A stretch of DNA of 42,426 nt from Acinetobacter sp. (lineage in GTDB: Bacteria; Pseudomonadota; Gammaproteobacteria; Pseudomonadales; Moraxellaceae), in the NCBI GenBank assembly GCA_031277915.1, contig JAITLL010000057.1, positions 1 to 42,426 of the forward strand. The letters run 5' to 3'. Positions 1 through 28,630 of this stretch are shown here, piece after piece. The notes below the pieces were generated by a model. The model worked only from the letters and a program-made list of their open reading frames with translations. It was not told the DNA's origin and ran no database searches. Both the position numbers and the translations under genes were made by a program. Each line of letters begins with the position of its first letter. Within the stretch, counting starts at the first letter, position 1.

Positions 1-851
1 CCATTAAAGGTTAAGCCAGTATTTTCAACTTTACTTAAGCTGTCTTTGCTTTTTTGACTTAAGTCCACCGCATAGTCAGTCACGCCATCCGCACTTGGGG
101 TACCCGGTGTCACCGTCACCGCAGTTGAAGCTGCACTTGCCGTGGTGCCTTTGGCATTCACGGTATAAATGCTATGACCATCGCTCGCATCTGCGCTTTT
201 ATCTACGCTGGTAATGTTTTTACCTGCTTTTACTTCGGTCGTTGCTGCAGCTGCCTTTTGGTTTAACTGGCTCACATTCACGCCATCCGTTGGGTTTGTT
301 CCAGCAGCAACATTAATAATCTTTTTACTGCCCGCATCAATCCCGCTGCTTAACACGCTTGGACCATTAGTAATGGTCAAGCCATTGTTATTGAGCAGAC
401 TATTACCCGCAGTCAAGCTGGTCACCGTTACATCCGGGTTCAGTTTAACCTGTACTCCTGATGCACTTGCGACAGTCGTAATATTGCTATCCCCAGTCAC
501 GCCAACTGTGTCACCCAGCTTTTTAATGCCTGTGGTACCACTGTCACCATTAAAGGTTAAGCCAGTATTTTCAACTTTACTTAAGCTGTCTTTGCTTTTT
601 TGACTTAAGTCAACTGCATAGTCAGTCACGCCATCCGCACTTGGGGTACCCGGTGTCACCGTCACCGCAGTTGAAGCTGCACTTGCCGTGGTGCCTTTGG
701 CATTCACGGTATAAATGCTATGACCATCAGTCGCATCTGCGCTTTTATCTACGCTGGTGATGTTTTTACCTGCTTTTACTTCAGTCGTTGCTGCAGCCGC
801 CTTTTGGTTTAACTGGCTCACATTAACGCCATCGGTCGGATTGGTGCCTGC
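1..851 (-). repeat. Direct repeat, 546-bp period, inside the adhesin
   Basis: Bases 1 to about 305 recur at 547 to about 851 with only a handful of substitutions. The period is 546 bp, exactly 182 codons, so recombination between copies adds or removes one module without breaking the frame. The first copy is cut by the window edge, so there may be more units outside. Confidence 0.9.
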
Positions 852-21725: not shown

Positions 21726-22418
21726 TTACGACTTTTCTAGCTCTTCTACAATCGCCAAAGCCGTCTTTCTAGCTGAAAAAGGGTTTTGACCTGTAATTAA
21801 GTTGCCATCTTGAACCACATATGGTGCAAAGGGAATAAAAGCTTTTTCATAGTGAGCACCGTATTCTTTTGCTAATTCTTCTGCATTGTATGGCACTTTT
21901 TTTGCCACCCCTGCCAAAACCTCTTCACTCCAAGCAAAGCCCGTTAACTTTTTATTTTTTATCAGTCGCTCACCATTTGAAAGTCTTACATTGAGCAAAC
22001 CACAGTAGCCATGACAAACACTCGAAACAATGCCGCCCTTTTCATAAATATTTTTAGTGATTTCTTGAAGTTCAGGGTTATCTAAAAAATCCCACATGAC
22101 TCCATGACCACCTGTGTAGTAAATCACATCATAATCTTGCCACTTGATATCTGAAGGCTTAAAGGTATTTGCCAAAAGCGTAATAAAAGCTTGATCATTT
22201 TCTCTATTTTTAACTGATTTATCTGCTACTAAAGGCACAAGTGATTTAGGTTCAATCGGAGTTTTTCCGCCATTTGGACTGACAATATCCTGTACGTAAT
22301 TTTGTTTCTCAAACTCATCGTAGGCATGGGTCAGTTCACCTAACCATAGACCTGTCGGTTCATCTATATCTTTATAGCGTGAAATATTTGTCACGACATG
22401 TAATATGCGTTTAGACAT
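21726..22418 (-). CDS. DJ-1/PfpI-family protein, cytoplasmic (class I GATase-like)
   Basis: A 230-residue protein of the DJ-1/PfpI superfamily, Hsp31-like subgroup. Members include glyoxalase III, deglycase-like and chaperone proteins. The nucleophile elbow is GGIVSSVCHGYCGLL with C135 and H136; the upstream glutamate is probably in GLWLGELTHAYDEF, and the glycine-rich DVIYYTGGHGVMWDF motif is clear. There is no signal peptide. It is divergent from the MerR regulator gene, and the shared promoter region holds a minus-strand promoter with TTGACA, a 19-bp spacer and TATAGT. It is therefore a probable MerR-activated gene. It resembles the exported protein at 23067-23873 over most of its length. 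Confidence 0.9.
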   Translation of the reverse strand: MSKRILHVVTNISRYKDIDEPTGLWLGELTHAYDEFEKQNYVQDIVSPNGGKTPIEPKSLVPLVADKSVKNRENDQAFITLLANTFKPSDIKWQDYDVIYYTGGHGVMWDFLDNPELQEITKNIYEKGGIVSSVCHGYCGLLNVRLSNGERLIKNKKLTGFAWSEEVLAGVAKKVPYNAEELAKEYGAHYEKAFIPFAPYVVQDGNLITGQNPFSARKTALAIVEELEKS

Positions 22419-22529: not shown

Positions 22530-22560
22530 ACTATAAGTCTAAAGTTAACTTGAATGTCAA
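22530..22560 (-). promoter_or_regulatory. MerR-type promoter P1 (DJ-1 gene)
   Basis: On the minus strand TTGACA (22560-22555) and TATAGT (22535-22530) are separated by 19 bp, the overlong spacing of MerR-activated promoters. The spacer contains the palindrome AAGTTAACTT. The -35 box covers the upstream ATG (22554) of the MerR frame. Confidence 0.75.
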
Positions 22561-22574
22561 TAGAGTCTGTAGCT

Positions 22575-22991
22575 ATGAATATTAGCGAGTTATCTAAATT
22601 AAGCGGCTTAAGCACCCCTACAATTCGTTACTACGAGCAAATCAAACTATTGCCTAAAGCAAAAAGAAAATCGAACGGCTATCGTGAATATACCGATAAC
22701 GATTTAAAGCAACTTTCTCTAATTCAACAAGCCCAGCAAGTCGGATTTTCTTTAGCAGAAATTAAAGCATTTTTGCCTTCAAAAGTTGCCACTTGGAACC
22801 ATGACGCACTCATCCAAACACTTGAATTAAAAATTCAAGAAATTGAACTTTTAGAACAAAAACTTAAAGTGAGTAAACAAAACTTACGAACTATGGTTGA
22901 AGCAATCAATAACAAACCTGATGAAATTACCTGCGAACAAAATGCTGAACGACTCATGAATCTCTATTACGACAAAGCAAAATCACCGTAA
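22575..22991 (+). CDS. MerR-family transcriptional regulator
   Basis: A 138-residue regulator. Residues 1-70 are the MerR winged helix-turn-helix: MNISELSKLSGLSTPTIRYYEQIKLLP, then NGYREYTDNDLKQLSLIQQAQQVGFSLAEIKAFL. A dimerisation coiled coil (about 75-115) and a short effector end (EITCEQNAERLMNLYY) follow. Only one cysteine is near the C-terminus, so neither a SoxR cluster nor a typical metal site is visible. An earlier ATG at 22554 lies inside promoter P1, and the ATG at 22575 gives the standard MerR N-terminus, so I use 22575. Three promoters in the window share its likely spacer operator (P1, P2, P3). Confidence 0.9.
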   Translation: MNISELSKLSGLSTPTIRYYEQIKLLPKAKRKSNGYREYTDNDLKQLSLIQQAQQVGFSLAEIKAFLPSKVATWNHDALIQTLELKIQEIELLEQKLKVSKQNLRTMVEAINNKPDEITCEQNAERLMNLYYDKAKSP

Positions 22992-23066
22992 TTTCTTCAA
23001 GACCTATTGACCTTAAAGTGCACTTTAAACATACGATTGATTACAGGTGATAAACGAGGACCTGTC

Positions 23067-23873
23067 ATGTTTAAAGTTTGGGATTTTCAGCGTTGGTTAA
23101 CCATTATTTTTGCCATTTTTTTGTCTTCACATGCGCTACATGCCGCAGAGTTAGATAAGACTCAAAGTTTAGCCAAAGCAAACGGGAAAATTTTAGTCGT
23201 GATGACCAATCACTCAGCTTATCCTTCCCGTTCTGATAAAACAGGACTTTGGCTGACCGAACTCACTCATTTTTACGATGTCGCTTTGGCTGCTGGCTAT
23301 GACATGGATTTTGTAAGTCCTTTAGGTGGTGAAGTTCCACTAGATGAACGTAGCCTAAAATCGATTTACCTAGACAAATCTGCCCGTCACCATTTAGCCG
23401 ACCCAGCCTTTATGCAGCGGTTAAAAACAACGCTGGCTCCAAGTGCCATTAATCCTACCCAGTACAAAACCATTTACTATACGGGTGGGCACGGCACCAT
23501 GTGGGATTTTCCAAACAATAAACCTTTGCAGAATATTAGTGAACAAATCTATCGCCAAGGTGGAGTCGTTGCAGCGGTCTGTCACGGCGTAGGCGGTTTA
23601 TTGCCTTTGCAGGATGAAAATGGCAAACCCTTAATTGCAGATAGAACTGTTACGGGTTTTGCAAATATAGAAGAAACACTTTCAGGTATTAAGTCTCAAG
23701 TTCCATTTTCTTTACAAAATGGACTCATTGAACGTGGTGCAAAATATAAAGAAGCATTTATTCCATTTACCTCGTATGTGATTTCGGACGACAGAATTAT
23801 TACTGGACAAAACCCACAGTCGAGTAAAGAAATTGCCGAAGCAGTTGTTAAGCGTTTAAGTAGCATGCAATAA
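23067..23873 (+). CDS. DJ-1/PfpI-family protein, exported
   Basis: A 268-residue relative of the cytoplasmic DJ-1-like protein, with an added N-terminal signal peptide (MFKVWDFQRWLTIIFAIFLS, cleavage likely after SSHALHA). The catalytic elbow is GGVVAAVCHGVGGLL with C172 and H173; KTGLWLTELTHFYDV and TIYYTGGHGTMWDFPN match the cytoplasmic copy. The frame runs upstream to 23007, but the ATG at 23067 has GAGG seven bases before it and starts the signal peptide. The gene follows the MerR gene on the same strand by 75 bp. A periplasmic DJ-1/Hsp31-like protein is less usual than a cytosolic one, and a pair covering both compartments suggests detoxification or repair on both sides of the membrane. 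Confidence 0.88.
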   Translation: MFKVWDFQRWLTIIFAIFLSSHALHAAELDKTQSLAKANGKILVVMTNHSAYPSRSDKTGLWLTELTHFYDVALAAGYDMDFVSPLGGEVPLDERSLKSIYLDKSARHHLADPAFMQRLKTTLAPSAINPTQYKTIYYTGGHGTMWDFPNNKPLQNISEQIYRQGGVVAAVCHGVGGLLPLQDENGKPLIADRTVTGFANIEETLSGIKSQVPFSLQNGLIERGAKYKEAFIPFTSYVISDDRIITGQNPQSSKEIAEAVVKRLSSMQ

Positions 23874-23877
23874 AGCT

Positions 23878-23918
23878 AAAAAGACGAATTATAGACCAGC
23901 ACTGTAATTCGTCTTTTT
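23878..23918. terminator. Bidirectional terminator
   Basis: A 14-bp perfect stem (AAAAAGACGAATTA with TAATTCGTCTTTTT) encloses 13 bases. It lies between convergent genes and has A- and T-runs on both sides. Confidence 0.88.
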
Positions 23919-23940
23919 CATACAAATATTATAGAAAAAA

Positions 23941-24516
23941 CTAACTAATCTTTTGGTAGTGAAGACCGATGGCACCAGAAGCAAAAGTTTTATTTTCAAT
24001 GAGTTTAAGATTGGTCTTTTGCTGAATACCTTGGAATAGTAGCAAACCACTACCAATCAGCACAGGTGAAACTGTAATTTTGTATTCATCAATTAAATCA
24101 AGTTGCATCAGGTAGTGTGCGAAGCGAGGGCTTCCCAGAATCACCATATCTTTACCCGCTTGCTGTTTGAGCTTATTAATTTCTTCTTCGACATGGTCTT
24201 TTACAAGTCTGGAATTATTCCATTCAACTGTATCTAAGGTGGTTGAAAAAACGATTTTTTCTGTCTTTTCAATCCACTCAGCATGATTGCGTTCATGCTC
24301 TGAAGCTTCTGGATTTGAAAGCATTGTTGGCCAGTAATTATACATCATCTGGTATGTCGCACGTCCCCAAATCAACGTATCGGCAGTGCTTAAAATTTCT
24401 TTGGCATGATTTGCTAAATCAGCATCGTAAGCAATCCACCCTATGTCCATTGCCCCATTTGGACCTTCGACAAAACTATCAAGCGATGCATGTAGAAACA
24501 GTATTAGTTTTCTCAT
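23941..24516 (-). CDS. RibD C-terminal/dihydrofolate-reductase-like protein
   Basis: A 191-residue NADPH-dependent reductase of the YwjB/YyaP group (RibD_C domain, DHFR fold). Typical pieces are MRKLILFLHASLDSFVEGPNG at the start, DTLIWGRATYQMMYNYWP, KIVFSTTLDTVEWNNSRLV, GKDMVILGSPRFAHYLM and the ending LIDEYKITVSPVLIGSGLLLF. The physiological substrate of this group is unknown. It converges with the exported DJ-1 gene. No MerR-type promoter like P1-P3 is visible in its upstream region (24517-24620), so it may not belong to that regulon. Confidence 0.87.
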   Translation of the reverse strand: MRKLILFLHASLDSFVEGPNGAMDIGWIAYDADLANHAKEILSTADTLIWGRATYQMMYNYWPTMLSNPEASEHERNHAEWIEKTEKIVFSTTLDTVEWNNSRLVKDHVEEEINKLKQQAGKDMVILGSPRFAHYLMQLDLIDEYKITVSPVLIGSGLLLFQGIQQKTNLKLIENKTFASGAIGLHYQKIS

Positions 24517-24727
24517 TATTTACATTCCTTTGTTAGGAAAAATATTTATCGCTTTTTAGTATATTCAATTTGAATTATTTCTTATGCAGTGTTTTGTTTT
24601 CTATCTTTCTTTACACCTTTTACTACCATATCATTTTGAAATATTTATCAATTTTATAAATTACCCGAACAAGATTGACTCCTTATTCGGGACTATCTAT
24701 AAACATGCTCTTTTAATAAGGGCTTTA

Positions 24728-25795
24728 TTAATTAATGACCAGCGGGCCAGAACCCGGCAACTCGGTCACTAGCTTATAACCCATCAATTTTGCTGGCGTA
24801 TATGTACCGCCTTTCACAGTGTTTTTGAGTAAATAATTCACCACAGTCAGTGAGCCATTTACGGTAAGGCTATACGCATTTTCTGTTTGGATGCGGGCAG
24901 TTTTGATTTCCCCACGCGTATTTCTTACTTCACCCCAAACATAGGTAGGTACTTTCTTGCGGAGTTTCTCATTTGGCCCAACAATCGTTTTTTCAATACG
25001 AGACTTAATAAACTTCTGTACGGCATTAATTTTTAATATTGGACGTACATAGTTCATCATTTTCGCGCCAATAATCATTTTTGGGAATGCAGGCACAAAT
25101 ACCTCAATGTTTGGAATACCCGTTGTATAGAACGCTGTAGATACGTCACCCCACGGAACACTCATGGCACTTTTTTTACCATCACCAAAATCAATGGTGC
25201 GAACATAATGTGCTAATGGAACGGTGGTAATTTTTCCGTTTTTACGAATTTTACCGCCTTCGGCCATACCTTCTGTACTTGTTTTAGCAGTACCCGGTGA
25301 AAACCCTGTTCTAGAGTCAAAACCAAGTGCTAAATGCGTTGCATCTGGCAATGCTTCTTTCAAGGCAGCAGCAACACAGTCTGTCGGGATTACATCGAAA
25401 CCAACACCCGGACAAAGCACAATATCGGCTTTTTCGGCTTGGCTGTTAAGTGACTGCGCTAATTCAAATACCGCAATTTCACCAGTAATATCGAGATAGT
25501 GAGCACCTGCTTTTATACAAGCTTCCATCATGGGCTTCGAGGTCGCTGAAAATGGTCCTGCGCAGTGCATGACCAATTTAAAGCCTTGGAGTTGCTTACT
25601 TACTGTATCTACGCTATCAAGTCCAAAAGCTTTATAGTCGAGTCCTAACTCTTGAGCGAGTGTCTCAACCTTGGCTTCGTTACGACCAGCCAAAGTTGGT
25701 TTTAGACCTTGGCGTACCGCTTCACGAGCGATTAATTCACCCGTGTAGCCATTTGCTCCATAAATTATCCAGTTTGAATTATTTGAATTTGTCAT
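24728..25795 (-). CDS. Saccharopine-dehydrogenase-like NAD(P)-binding protein (trans-acting enoyl reductase type)
   Basis: A 355-residue oxidoreductase. The N-terminal Rossmann motif is WIIYGANGYTGELIAREAV; further on VMHCAGPFSATSKPMMEAC, HYLDITGEIAVFEL and CPGVGFDVIPTDCVAAAL are typical of the Sacchrp_dh_NADP group that includes mycobacterial trans-acting enoyl reductases. The GTG at 25807 is possible, but the ATG at 25795 is preferred. It follows the Old Yellow Enzyme gene by only 15 bp on the same strand, so the two form one operon driven by MerR-type promoter P2. The substrate is unknown; a conjugated enone or aldehyde chain would fit the partner. Confidence 0.85.
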   Translation of the reverse strand: MTNSNNSNWIIYGANGYTGELIAREAVRQGLKPTLAGRNEAKVETLAQELGLDYKAFGLDSVDTVSKQLQGFKLVMHCAGPFSATSKPMMEACIKAGAHYLDITGEIAVFELAQSLNSQAEKADIVLCPGVGFDVIPTDCVAAALKEALPDATHLALGFDSRTGFSPGTAKTSTEGMAEGGKIRKNGKITTVPLAHYVRTIDFGDGKKSAMSVPWGDVSTAFYTTGIPNIEVFVPAFPKMIIGAKMMNYVRPILKINAVQKFIKSRIEKTIVGPNEKLRKKVPTYVWGEVRNTRGEIKTARIQTENAYSLTVNGSLTVVNYLLKNTVKGGTYTPAKLMGYKLVTELPGSGPLVIN

Positions 25796-25810
25796 AACAC
25801 AACTCACTTA

Positions 25811-27049
25811 TTAAGAAGCAAATGTATAGTCACGCATGCCTTTTTTGTATTGGCGGGTACGACATGACATAGCTGATTGTTGCAAAATTAAAGCCCAAGC
25901 TGGTGAAACATTTGGTTTTGTTTTTTTACCAGCGCTTAATTTAAGTAACTGGAATTTGACCACAGCCATATTGGCAAGAGAAGCGAATGTTTTATTTTCC
26001 CAGGTAATTGGCTTGAGTTCAGGTGCAATATTTTGGCCTTGTTTCCAAGCATTTGGCAAATTAGGCTCAATCGCTAAAGCCGTAGCAATACCGACCATAT
26101 CTACACCACTTTCAACCACCTGCTCTGCTACCTGCTTACGGCGTATGCCACCTGTGACCATAACAGGCATTTTGGCAACTTTACGAATTTCTTGTGCAAA
26201 TTCTAAAAAGTAAGCTTCACGGGCAAGTGTACGGCCATCACGTGCTTGACCTTGCATTGCAGGCGCTTCATAGCTACCGCCTGAAAGTTCAACCAAATCG
26301 ACTGCATGCTCATTTAACATTTTAACCACCTGTTGAGCATCTTCAGCGCTAAACCCACCACGTTGGAAATCGGCTGAGTTCAGTTTTACTGCAACAGTAA
26401 ACTGAGGTGAAACCACTTTACGAACAGCCTCTACAATTTCAATTAAAATGCGAGCGCGGTTTTCTAAAGAACCGCCCCATTGATCTTGGCGTTTATTGCT
26501 CAGTGGAGAAAGAAACTGACTTAATAAATAACCATGCGCTGCATGAATTTCTACACCAGTAAACCCTGCTTTTTCGCCTAAACGCGCCGTGTTTGCAAAA
26601 CGCTGAATCACCTCTGCAATCATAGATTCAGTCATTTCGATTGGCGTATTAAAGCGATTTGACATTTTGCCAAGATCAAGTGAAATTGCCGATGGCGCCC
26701 AAGTCTGTTGACCAAGGTTCGCTTGCATTTGACGCCCTGGATGATTAATTTGAAGCCAAACCTGAGCACCTTTTGAACGACCAATTTGTGCCCATTTTTT
26801 AAAAGTATCCAAATGCTTTTCATCTTCAAGCACGATGCCGCCCGGTCCAGTCATTGCTCGGCGATCTACCATTACATTTCCGGTAATGATTAAACCTATA
26901 CCACCATTTGCCCAAGCCTGATATAAACGCATTAACTCTTCTGATGGTGCATGGTTTAAATCAGCCATGTTTTCTTCCATTGCAGCTTTCGCAATACGGT
27001 TAGGAACATATGAACCATTTGGGAATACTAGCTTTTCGAACACTTTCAT
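25811..27049 (-). CDS. NADH:flavin oxidoreductase, Old Yellow Enzyme family
   Basis: A 412-residue FMN enzyme that reduces activated C=C bonds. The frame extends to a TTG at 27067, but the ATG at 27049 follows GAGG by eight bases. Family motifs are LVFPNGSYVPNRIAKAAMEE, GLIITGNVMVDRR, QINHPGRQ, GFTGVEIHAAHGYLLSQFLS, NKRQDQWGGSLENRAR, and VMVTGGIRRKQVAEQ for the phosphate-binding loop. It has no second FAD/NAD domain, so it is the short OYE/NemA-like form rather than a 2,4-dienoyl-CoA reductase. It is the first gene of a two-gene operon behind promoter P2. OYEs are classical electrophile (enone, quinone, maleimide) detoxifiers. Confidence 0.92.
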   Translation of the reverse strand: MKVFEKLVFPNGSYVPNRIAKAAMEENMADLNHAPSEELMRLYQAWANGGIGLIITGNVMVDRRAMTGPGGIVLEDEKHLDTFKKWAQIGRSKGAQVWLQINHPGRQMQANLGQQTWAPSAISLDLGKMSNRFNTPIEMTESMIAEVIQRFANTARLGEKAGFTGVEIHAAHGYLLSQFLSPLSNKRQDQWGGSLENRARILIEIVEAVRKVVSPQFTVAVKLNSADFQRGGFSAEDAQQVVKMLNEHAVDLVELSGGSYEAPAMQGQARDGRTLAREAYFLEFAQEIRKVAKMPVMVTGGIRRKQVAEQVVESGVDMVGIATALAIEPNLPNAWKQGQNIAPELKPITWENKTFASLANMAVVKFQLLKLSAGKKTKPNVSPAWALILQQSAMSCRTRQYKKGMRDYTFAS

Positions 27050-27076
27050 TGGAATGACCTCATTCAATATGGCTTT

Positions 27077-27107
27077 ACTTTAAGATTAAAGCTAACTTTA
27101 ATGTCAA
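27077..27107 (-). promoter_or_regulatory. MerR-type promoter P2 (OYE operon)
   Basis: On the minus strand TTGACA (27107-27102) and TAAAGT (27082-27077) are 19 bp apart. The spacer core AAGTTAGCTTTA differs by one base from the cores of P1 and P3. The start point would lie about 20 bp before the OYE start codon. Confidence 0.75.
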
Positions 27108-27159
27108 TACCTTTTCGCACTTCTGTATTTAATCAATTGAATTTATTATTTTTATATAA

Positions 27160-27188
27160 AAAAAGAGGCACTCAATATGCCTCTTTTT
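27160..27188. terminator. Terminator of the alpha/beta hydrolase gene
   Basis: An 11-bp stem (AAAAAGAGGCA with TGCCTCTTTTT) closes a 7-base loop. It lies 20 bp beyond the hydrolase stop and can work in either direction. Confidence 0.88.
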
Positions 27189-27207
27189 AAAGTTTTAAAA
27201 CTTTTAA

Positions 27208-28038
27208 TTATTCACGAATAAATGCCAATAAGTCAGCATTAATCACTTCATGATTTACAGTTAACATGCCATGTGAAAAACCTGGGTAGATTTTAAGTTG
27301 GCTATTTGGGAGTAACTCAGCAGATTTCACACCAGAAGTTTTATAAGGCACGATCTGGTCATCGTCACCATGCAACACTAAAACAGGAACCGTGATTTTC
27401 TTTAAATCTTCAGTGAAGTCAGTTTGCGAGAATGCCACAATACCATCGTAATGCGCTTTTGCACTGCCCGTCATGCCCTGACGCCACCAATTCGAAATGA
27501 TACCTTCAGATGGTTTCGCATCTGGTCGGTTAAAACCATAGAACGGACCAGATGGAAGGTCTCGGAAAAATTGTGCACGGTTTGTGAGAACTTGATTTTG
27601 CAGGTCATCAAAAACTTCTTTTGGTAAACCTTCAGGATTATTTTCAGTTTTAACCATCAGTGGTGGAACTGCACTAACAAGTACAGCTTTTGCAACGTTT
27701 TCTTGGCCGTGACGTGCAATATAATGAGCAACTTCACCGCCACCCGTTGAATGGCCAATATGAATTGCATTTTTAATGTTTAGATGTTTAACCACTTCTG
27801 CAACGTCATCTGCGTAGTGGTCCATATCATGACCATCCCACACCTGACTCGAACGCCCATGTCCCCGTCTGTCATGTGCTACAACACGATAACCTTGCCC
27901 TAAAAAGAAAAGTAACTGTGTGTCCCAATCATCTGAACTTAAAGGCCAACCGTGATGAAAAAATAAAACTTGGGCATCGCGTGGACCCCAGTCTTTATAA
28001 AAAATTTCTACGCCATCTTTTGTGGTTACATATCCCAT
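27208..28038 (-). CDS. Alpha/beta hydrolase, non-heme chloroperoxidase type
   Basis: A 276-residue alpha/beta hydrolase resembling cofactor-free chloroperoxidases/arylesterases. The oxyanion region is FFHHGWPLSSDDWDTQL; the nucleophile is S97 in AIHIGHSTGGGEVAHYIARHG; the acid is in VLVLHGDDDQIVPY, and the histidine is in YPGFSHGMLTVNH. VVAHDRRGHGRSSQ is also typical. It is a single cytoplasmic gene with its own MerR-type promoter (P3) and its own terminator. The natural substrate is probably an ester or lactone. Peroxidase activity is a side reaction in this family. Confidence 0.9.
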   Translation of the reverse strand: MGYVTTKDGVEIFYKDWGPRDAQVLFFHHGWPLSSDDWDTQLLFFLGQGYRVVAHDRRGHGRSSQVWDGHDMDHYADDVAEVVKHLNIKNAIHIGHSTGGGEVAHYIARHGQENVAKAVLVSAVPPLMVKTENNPEGLPKEVFDDLQNQVLTNRAQFFRDLPSGPFYGFNRPDAKPSEGIISNWWRQGMTGSAKAHYDGIVAFSQTDFTEDLKKITVPVLVLHGDDDQIVPYKTSGVKSAELLPNSQLKIYPGFSHGMLTVNHEVINADLLAFIRE

Positions 28039-28094
28039 CTTTGTTCTCCTGCTGAAAGTCTATTTTATAGATCGTTATAAAGCTTTGAATATTT

Positions 28095-28125
28095 ATACTA
28101 GGGTTAAAGTTAACTTTAAAGTTAA
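28095..28125 (-). promoter_or_regulatory. MerR-type promoter P3 (alpha/beta hydrolase)
   Basis: On the minus strand TTAACT (28125-28120) and TAGTAT (28100-28095) are 19 bp apart. The spacer contains AAGTTAACTTTA, the same core as in P1. The -35 box is poorer than in P1 and P2. Confidence 0.68.
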
Positions 28126-28162: not shown

Positions 28163-28630
28163 GGCCTCTATTCAACTTTGTATCAACCTCATTTTTATGC
28201 ACATGTTTTGGCTTTACCTGTTGATACAGAAATTGCCAGTGTTCGCGGTGTATATGGTTACCAACTACCAAAATGGTTAACTCAAATTGACGTCAACATT
28301 AACTCAAAAGAAGTTCAAGCCAATATTGCCGATTTTAATAGTAAATTAGATTTAAGCTTAAAAAACCCTGTACCGAATTTAAAACATATCGACTCTGAAA
28401 CGTATATTAATAAAGCAACCATGCTACATGTAGTCGATGGGCATCAGACAGAAGTTCAATCTAATATTCTTTCTTTTGCACAAAAGCTTTTTCCAAAGAA
28501 AGTACAACTAGTGAAAAACGAAGGCCCTTTAACAAAGTTACTAAATAAACTTGGCGCTTCAAAAACTCTACGCTTAGATGTTATTGGGGATGCTCAGGTG
28601 GTACTTAATTTGCCAACCTTAATTCAATAA
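28163..28630 (+). pseudogene. Acetoacetate-decarboxylase-family remnant, N-terminus missing
   Basis: About 150 residues of an acetoacetate decarboxylase (ADC)-like protein. It contains the segment TEIASVRGVYGYQLPKWLTQIDV, which resembles the conserved region around the catalytic lysine of ADC-like proteins (G-Y-x-x-P-K). The full family has about 250 residues; here the N-terminal third is absent. An in-frame TGA lies at 28160, and no ATG or ribosome binding site precedes the conserved part (only a TTG at 28178). It starts right behind the divergent MerR-type promoter P3. It could be translated as a short protein from the TTG, but decay after deletion of the 5' end is more likely. Confidence 0.6.

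Follow-up and report, generated by a model that had tools for sequence, protein, structure and literature searches.

A putative MerR-controlled enzyme regulon with over-long promoters in Acinetobacter and its relatives

Described MerR systems and the Acinetobacter locus

Regulators of the MerR family bind to the spacer of their promoters and activate transcription by distorting the DNA (PMC9909328; PMC1526738, as far as the available text of each goes). Here we describe a 42,426-nucleotide stretch of Acinetobacter sp. DNA (contig JAITLL010000057.1, assembly GCA_031277915.1, whose 3.48 Mb are spread over 83 contigs), hereafter the window, in which a gene for a MerR-family protein of 138 aa (merR, 22575..22991, + strand) is accompanied by four promoters that have 19 bp between their -35 and -10 boxes and a common dyad within that spacer. 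We consider it probable that the protein is an activator, switched by electrophiles through its cysteine C120, and that it induces an Old Yellow Enzyme (OYE), DJ-1 proteins and other enzymes.

The closest working analogue is AdhR (YraB) of Bacillus subtilis. In the accessible part of PMC4776306, AdhR raises adhA, yraC and yraA upon formaldehyde or methylglyoxal via Cys52, and is comparable as a MerR-family activator with a small regulon, in its case including an alcohol dehydrogenase (adhA), and a one-cysteine response. The two differ in that AdhR senses through Cys52, whereas the window MerR has Gln52 and a conserved C120, and in that the targets in the window centre on OYE. The yraA product belongs to the DJ-1/PfpI family, and the AdhR operator is similar to the element studied here. 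The window MerR would thus work like AdhR, but we do not file it as a member of that group because it falls short of the NmlR model and lacks the AdhR cysteine. NmlR of Haemophilus and Neisseria is also a MerR-family protein, divergent from its targets and concerned with carbonyl stress (PMC4776306, PMC3499171, in the portions available), but its Cys54 is absent from the window MerR, and we saw no adhC-estD pair among the targets. CueR has the same fold and promoters with 19-bp spacers and is the best sequence relative of the window MerR, but its operator, ACCTTCCC-5-TGGAAGGT in the available text of PMC1526738, is unlike the element. Unlike CueR, the window MerR is without the first loop cysteine, and we saw no metal-handling targets in Acinetobacter. 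Among other regulators, NemR of E. coli is a TetR-family repressor with a different promoter mechanism; NemA is an OYE. The likeness of the NemR-nemA-gloA system lies in placing N-ethylmaleimide reductase and carbonyl detoxification under an electrophile-responsive regulator (PMC3739934, from the part available).

The preliminary description of this DNA, made from the letters, knew of no account of such a regulon, and we too found none among the papers listed in searches of a body of open-access literature that leaves out most subscription journals. The present analysis assigns a regulator, a binding motif and a set of targets to an enzyme regulon that is widely distributed in Acinetobacter and its relatives. 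Mutation of one residue, C120, is predicted to uncouple sensing. If our reading is true, the system shows the conversion of a metal-sensing fold to electrophile sensing, and its inducible promoters could serve in biosensors of enones, quinones or carbonyls.

Promoter elements and their conservation before target genes

Three of the promoters are on the minus strand, and the coordinates, strands and 19-bp spacing given for them in the preliminary description are all correct, as is the assignment of a DJ-1/PfpI gene, an OYE and saccharopine-dehydrogenase-like operon and an alpha/beta hydrolase as the genes that follow. The first, TTGACA-TTCAAGTTAACTTTAGACT-TATAGT (22560-22530, -), lies in the divergent region between merR and the gene for DJ-1/PfpI protein 1 (PfpI-1, 21726..22418, -), an Hsp31/glyoxalase III-like protein whose solved relatives in a structure-relative search include glyoxalase III and Hsp31. 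The second, TTGACA-TTAAAGTTAGCTTTAATCT-TAAAGT (27107-27077, -), precedes an operon in which the first gene encodes an OYE-family NADH:flavin oxidoreductase (25811..27049, -), recognised by Oxidored_FMN and by solved relatives, and the second a saccharopine-dehydrogenase-like NADP-binding protein (24728..25795, -) with no solved relative at E <= 0.001. The third, TTAACT-TTAAAGTTAACTTTAACCC-TAGTAT (28125-28095, -), precedes an alpha/beta hydrolase (ABH, 27208..28038, -) that is near solved esterase/non-heme chloroperoxidase chains. A fourth site of the same geometry, TTGACC-TTAAAGTGCACTTTAAACA-TACGAT (23007-23037, +), which the preliminary description overlooked, is found 5' of the gene for a second DJ-1/PfpI protein (PfpI-2, 23067..23873, +).

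In all four sites the dyad occupies identical spacer positions (4-13), and the combination of a dyad with a promoter spacer of 19-20 bp, which characterises the MerR family, supports their assignment as MerR-type promoters. Scanning the window for the element gave 6 matches, whereas 60 Markov-1 random sequences averaged 0.67 each and never exceeded 3; 6-8 of the 8 dyad pairs are formed in the four sites and 4/8 in the two remaining matches. The ABH site has a poor -35 box, TTAACT, and adjoins a local repeat of the dyad, while the listed ABH sites of relatives have TTGACC or TTGACT, and we predict that ABH may be less inducible in the window strain. The spacer core said to be shared by the three minus-strand promoters is indeed in all of them, but on its own the shared 12-mer is no more frequent in the genome than expected by chance (10 matches vs 15 for the reversed control), and it was dropped as a scanning pattern. 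A 31-base pattern built from the three sites did better at full stringency, where its only 0-mismatch matches (n = 2) are window sites, but not at up to 3 mismatches, with 12 matches vs 17 for the control; at 2 mismatches it finds the third window site and one place elsewhere in the genome (contig C76). The idea of a single regulon stands, and its extent of three promoters does not: the window holds four sites or more, relatives show seven target types or more, and the system also occurs beyond Acinetobacter.

Conservation was scored in 22 named Acinetobacter loci (L027-L048), counting elements with at most 2 mismatches within 220 nt upstream of orthologues, which were scorable only when the 5' end and at least 150 nt of upstream sequence were present. 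Before the orthologues of five target genes the element is found in 87/90 scorable cases, and before four neighbour genes in 0/19 (RibD_C-like 0/3, FAD oxidoreductase 0/5, Rrf2 regulator 0/5, metallo-beta-lactamase-fold protein 0/6). For PfpI-1 it is present in 16/16, all with 0 mismatches, and for PfpI-2 also in 16/16, six with 0 and ten with 1 mismatch. All 18 scorable OYE orthologues have it with 0 mismatches, one further case at a locus edge having been set aside, and all 18 for ABH have a site (15 with 0 mismatches, 2 with 1, and a weak site in L046 with 2). The fifth gene, an acetoacetate-decarboxylase-like (ADC-like) gene, has it in 19/22, and in the three misses (L046-L048) a site precedes a longer reading frame. 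For merR itself, a site oriented with the gene is present in 1/22 loci. The saccharopine-dehydrogenase-like gene has none (0/10), as expected of a second operon gene, and its stand-alone homologues in L044-L047 have their own site. Where OYE and ABH lie on the opposite side of merR (L046-L048), the OYE site is kept in all three loci and the ABH site clearly in L047 and L048. Further targets in relatives are the ADC-like genes and, at a single locus, an aldehyde dehydrogenase, and beyond the genus they also include an NAD(P)-binding epimerase-like gene. Genes called here epimerase-like, nitroreductase-like, metal-associated or peroxiredoxin-like, and signal-like stretches, were recognised by eye.

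The spacing within the element is also fixed. Among 272 core matches, 88 have a TTGAC box 0-15 nt upstream of the core, and in 86 of these it sits exactly 3 nt off. Distances to TANNNT with the same cores are 19 bp in 87 cases, 13 bp in 69, 21 bp in 10 and 23-25 bp in 12. We did not accept the other distances as further promoter types; the 13-bp class arises from TAATCT, which the motif itself contains.

The regulator and its association with the element

The merR gene was called from Pfam MerR_1, MerR and MerR-DNA-bind, from the alignment of orthologues and from a structural model, with MerR_1 (72.8 bits) and MerR-DNA-bind (41.5 bits) above their cut-offs. A longer reading frame begins at 22554, within the operator, but the conserved start is at 22575. 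The protein scores below the CueR equivalog cut-off (87 bits vs 147.4), though CueR is its best NCBIfam model, and below that of the NmlR model (58.4 bits vs 175). The predicted monomer (mean pLDDT 89, pTM 0.65) has CueR and CadR as its best fold matches and sets C120 where the last helix begins, past the loop that comes after the long helix 76-112. CueR uses C112 and C120. Across 38 distinct Acinetobacter orthologues C120 is invariant (38/38) and is the sole cysteine in 37, the one of L125 having one more at its end; residue 52, by number the position of the AdhR cysteine, is Gln in 38/38. In AdhR and NmlR the conserved Cys52/54 belongs to the DNA-binding half. With one cysteine, the window MerR does not have the four-cysteine [2Fe-2S] motif of SoxR.

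A survey of 150 Acinetobacter genomes found MerR orthologues in 43, at E ~1e-48 or better, the next match being at ~1e-20. The element at up to 1 mismatch is present in 43/43 of these genomes (41 with at least 2) and in 12/107 of those without the orthologue (Fisher p ~6e-27, species not being independent). A reversed control pattern gave 24 matches in 22/150 genomes, so the 12 MerR-negative genomes with an element are near background. Among the 7/12 that were looked at, three matches lie inside unrelated reading frames, two before ABH or ADC-like orthologues (G048 and G051) and two before other genes. Two good elements were also noted in genomes without a MerR orthologue, one in L141 (G065), 23 nt before an epimerase-like gene, and one in L139 (G054), 389 nt before a small protein.

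The order survey, of 291 other genomes outside Acinetobacter, is the more independent test. An exact element occurs in 10 of the 12 genomes with a MerR homologue (E <= 1e-22) vs 8 of the 279 others (Fisher p ~3e-12), and in the two MerR-bearing genomes that lack an exact element, one with 1 mismatch is found in front of PfpI, epimerase-like, ADC-like and OYE genes. The exact elements lie at 25 places in 18 genomes, from which we fetched 19 loci outside the window; at 13/19 a merR gene is divergent and within 41 nt of the element. Among the others, L170 and L171 have a different MerR 123 nt from the element, L172 and L186 have one ~740-750 nt away, L174 has a regulator ~1.1 kb off, and L169 has no MerR in the stretch. 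An OYE gene (56-68% identical) follows the element in 6/19 fetched loci, and one at 70-72% in L188 and L190, longer stretches fetched later. Around 58 other MerR genes (L049-L106), no element at up to 2 mismatches was found within 400 nt of the regulator and no exact one in the stretch; L054 is the only one of these loci with an OYE-like match (27%). In three of them, from Paenibacillus (L050, L055, L074) and divergent from a nitroreductase-like gene, the corresponding place holds a less similar dyad (4 mismatches). In G304, G366 and G425, which belong to one other family of the order, the core element comes in pairs ~8-9 kb apart (L170, L171, L172, L186).

In a tree of 48 MerR proteins, the operator-associated regulators fall in one 25-row clade (support 99/96, with the bootstrap not fully settled). 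Operator-associated rows make up 23 of the 25, all ten Acinetobacter rows having been given that label together, and the remaining two are Paenibacillus proteins divergent from a nitroreductase-like gene with a ACTATAAAGTATACTTTATAGC-type dyad between. The operator-bearing rows L170 and L171 fall outside the clade. The C120 column is cysteine in 25/25 clade rows and in 19/23 other rows, and it is the second loop position of the two-cysteine CueR type. The first metal-loop cysteine is missing throughout the clade, and at aligned positions 106-119 a cysteine occurs in 0/25 clade rows vs 16/23 others.

Proposed mechanism, rival explanations and neighbouring features

Judged from sequence, control of these promoters by the adjacent MerR is very likely. 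The preliminary description had pointed to this protein; the conservation of the element before its targets and the association of clade and element uphold it as the likely regulator, and its binding to the sites is what we infer. A MerR dimer would bind the AAAGYNNRCTTT dyad inside the over-long promoters. On the model of other MerR proteins, the dimer at rest would keep the promoter out of register, and the activated dimer would kink and untwist the DNA so that RNA polymerase could read both boxes. The targets in the window would be PfpI-1, PfpI-2, OYE with the saccharopine-dehydrogenase-like gene, and ABH. Autoregulation of merR is likely as well, because the PfpI-1 operator ends 14 nt ahead of the merR start codon. 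Activation would probably come about by modification of the single C120, in the loop where metal sensors hold their metal, and the modifiers would be electrophiles, for example enones, quinones or reactive carbonyls, and the role of the induced enzymes would be to clear them. We infer electrophile sensing, with C120 as its sensor; such a response fits OYE, the Hsp31-like DJ-1 proteins and a single-cysteine sensor. More tentatively, it is possible that the unnamed MerR clade (Acinetobacter, other families of the order, and Paenibacillus as sister) arose from a metal sensor by losing the first metal-loop cysteine. The remaining cysteine may then have become an electrophile sensor, an adduct reordering the loop as metal does, and this would make a thiol route distinct from that of NmlR and AdhR, controlling OYE, nitroreductase and DJ-1 enzymes.

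Several observations weigh against an electrophile-responsive regulon under this MerR. Some of the target enzymes would suit a degradation pathway as well, a single cysteine is no proof of thiol sensing, and a cysteine in the residue-52 column, the AdhR position by number, occurs in 3/25 clade rows (L173, L180, L181). The OYE gene is present in 42/43 MerR-bearing Acinetobacter genomes vs 0/107 others, so the genus correlation partly reflects gain and loss of the whole module, and because of this co-inheritance we rejected genus-level co-occurrence as sole evidence. G048 and G051, where no MerR orthologue was found, have sites before ABH or ADC-like orthologues, the gene in G051 being short. 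Exact elements in G304, G346, G366 and G425 are near a different MerR or none, and in L169-L172 and L186 the element is followed by genes that look metal-associated or peroxiredoxin-like, so other MerR systems match the element pattern too. In a logo of 86 distinct sites, most of the information is carried by the -35, the dyad, the -10 and a C-T directly ahead of the -10, and the flanks are low apart from an A-rich stretch upstream. Because -35, dyad and -10 served in part to choose the sites, the logo cannot count as independent evidence for them, and the spacing test is the better one.

The same regulator and promoters could instead serve a catabolic regulon, in which the inducer would be a specific non-electrophilic ligand and OYE, the decarboxylase-like protein, the esterase, the aldehyde dehydrogenase and the epimerase-like protein would form a degradation route. 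None of the ADC-like, esterase/haloperoxidase-like, aldehyde dehydrogenase and saccharopine-dehydrogenase-like genes encodes a classic stress enzyme, and the module is accessory, being in 43/150 Acinetobacter genomes. We nevertheless think this explanation unlikely, given that the targets include two DJ-1/PfpI proteins, one of which matches Hsp31/glyoxalase III structures, that the single cysteine is invariant, that the Paenibacillus sister regulators are divergent from a nitroreductase-like gene, and that no transporter or ring-cleavage gene was seen by eye after the sites of the 22 named Acinetobacter loci.

A different MerR protein of the cell might control these promoters instead, and SoxR would be the most likely one. 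The host genome encodes six MerR_1 proteins, and one of them, on contig C50, has a SoxR-type CxxCxC-x5-C cluster; the SoxR box contains a AAGTTAACTT core, which the element has in common with it. The outer positions, however, are TTAAAG/CTTTAA in the element and CTCAAG/CTTGAG in the SoxR box, the divergent regulator within 41 nt at 13/19 loci outside Acinetobacter belongs to the single-loop-cysteine clade, and the 58 other MerR loci have no element at up to 2 mismatches within 400 nt of the regulator, all of which makes control by such another MerR protein very improbable. A CueR-like sensor governing metal tolerance we regard as extremely unlikely. CueR is the best model and the best fold match, and the elements in G304, G346 and G366 precede metal-associated-looking genes, but they do so beside another MerR or none, the CueR score is under the cut-off, just one loop cysteine is present, and no efflux ATPase, copper oxidase or chaperone was seen by eye after the sites in the named Acinetobacter loci.

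Beyond the ABH promoter, the window has the 3' remnant of an ADC-like gene (28166-28618, +; ORF 28178-28630), whose promoter and 5' half are absent. Of a 298-residue relative, residues 144-296 are all that can be matched in the window, and alignments with five relatives skip roughly 630 bp. The relative in L028 has a Pfam ADC match slightly below the cut-off (29 vs 29.8 bits). In many relatives ABH and the ADC-like gene are divergently transcribed, each from its own promoter of this type. The N-terminus of PfpI-2 is hydrophobic and may be a signal peptide, and similar signal-like N-termini are seen in the ADC-like proteins of L035-L037, L039, L042 and L046-L048, and some of the regulon's products may thus work outside the cytoplasm. 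Near the contig end, window positions 49-79 and 595-625 (-) carry near-identical stretches, CTGACTATGC[GA]GT[GT]GACTTAAGTCAAAAAAG, which are probably a repeat element.

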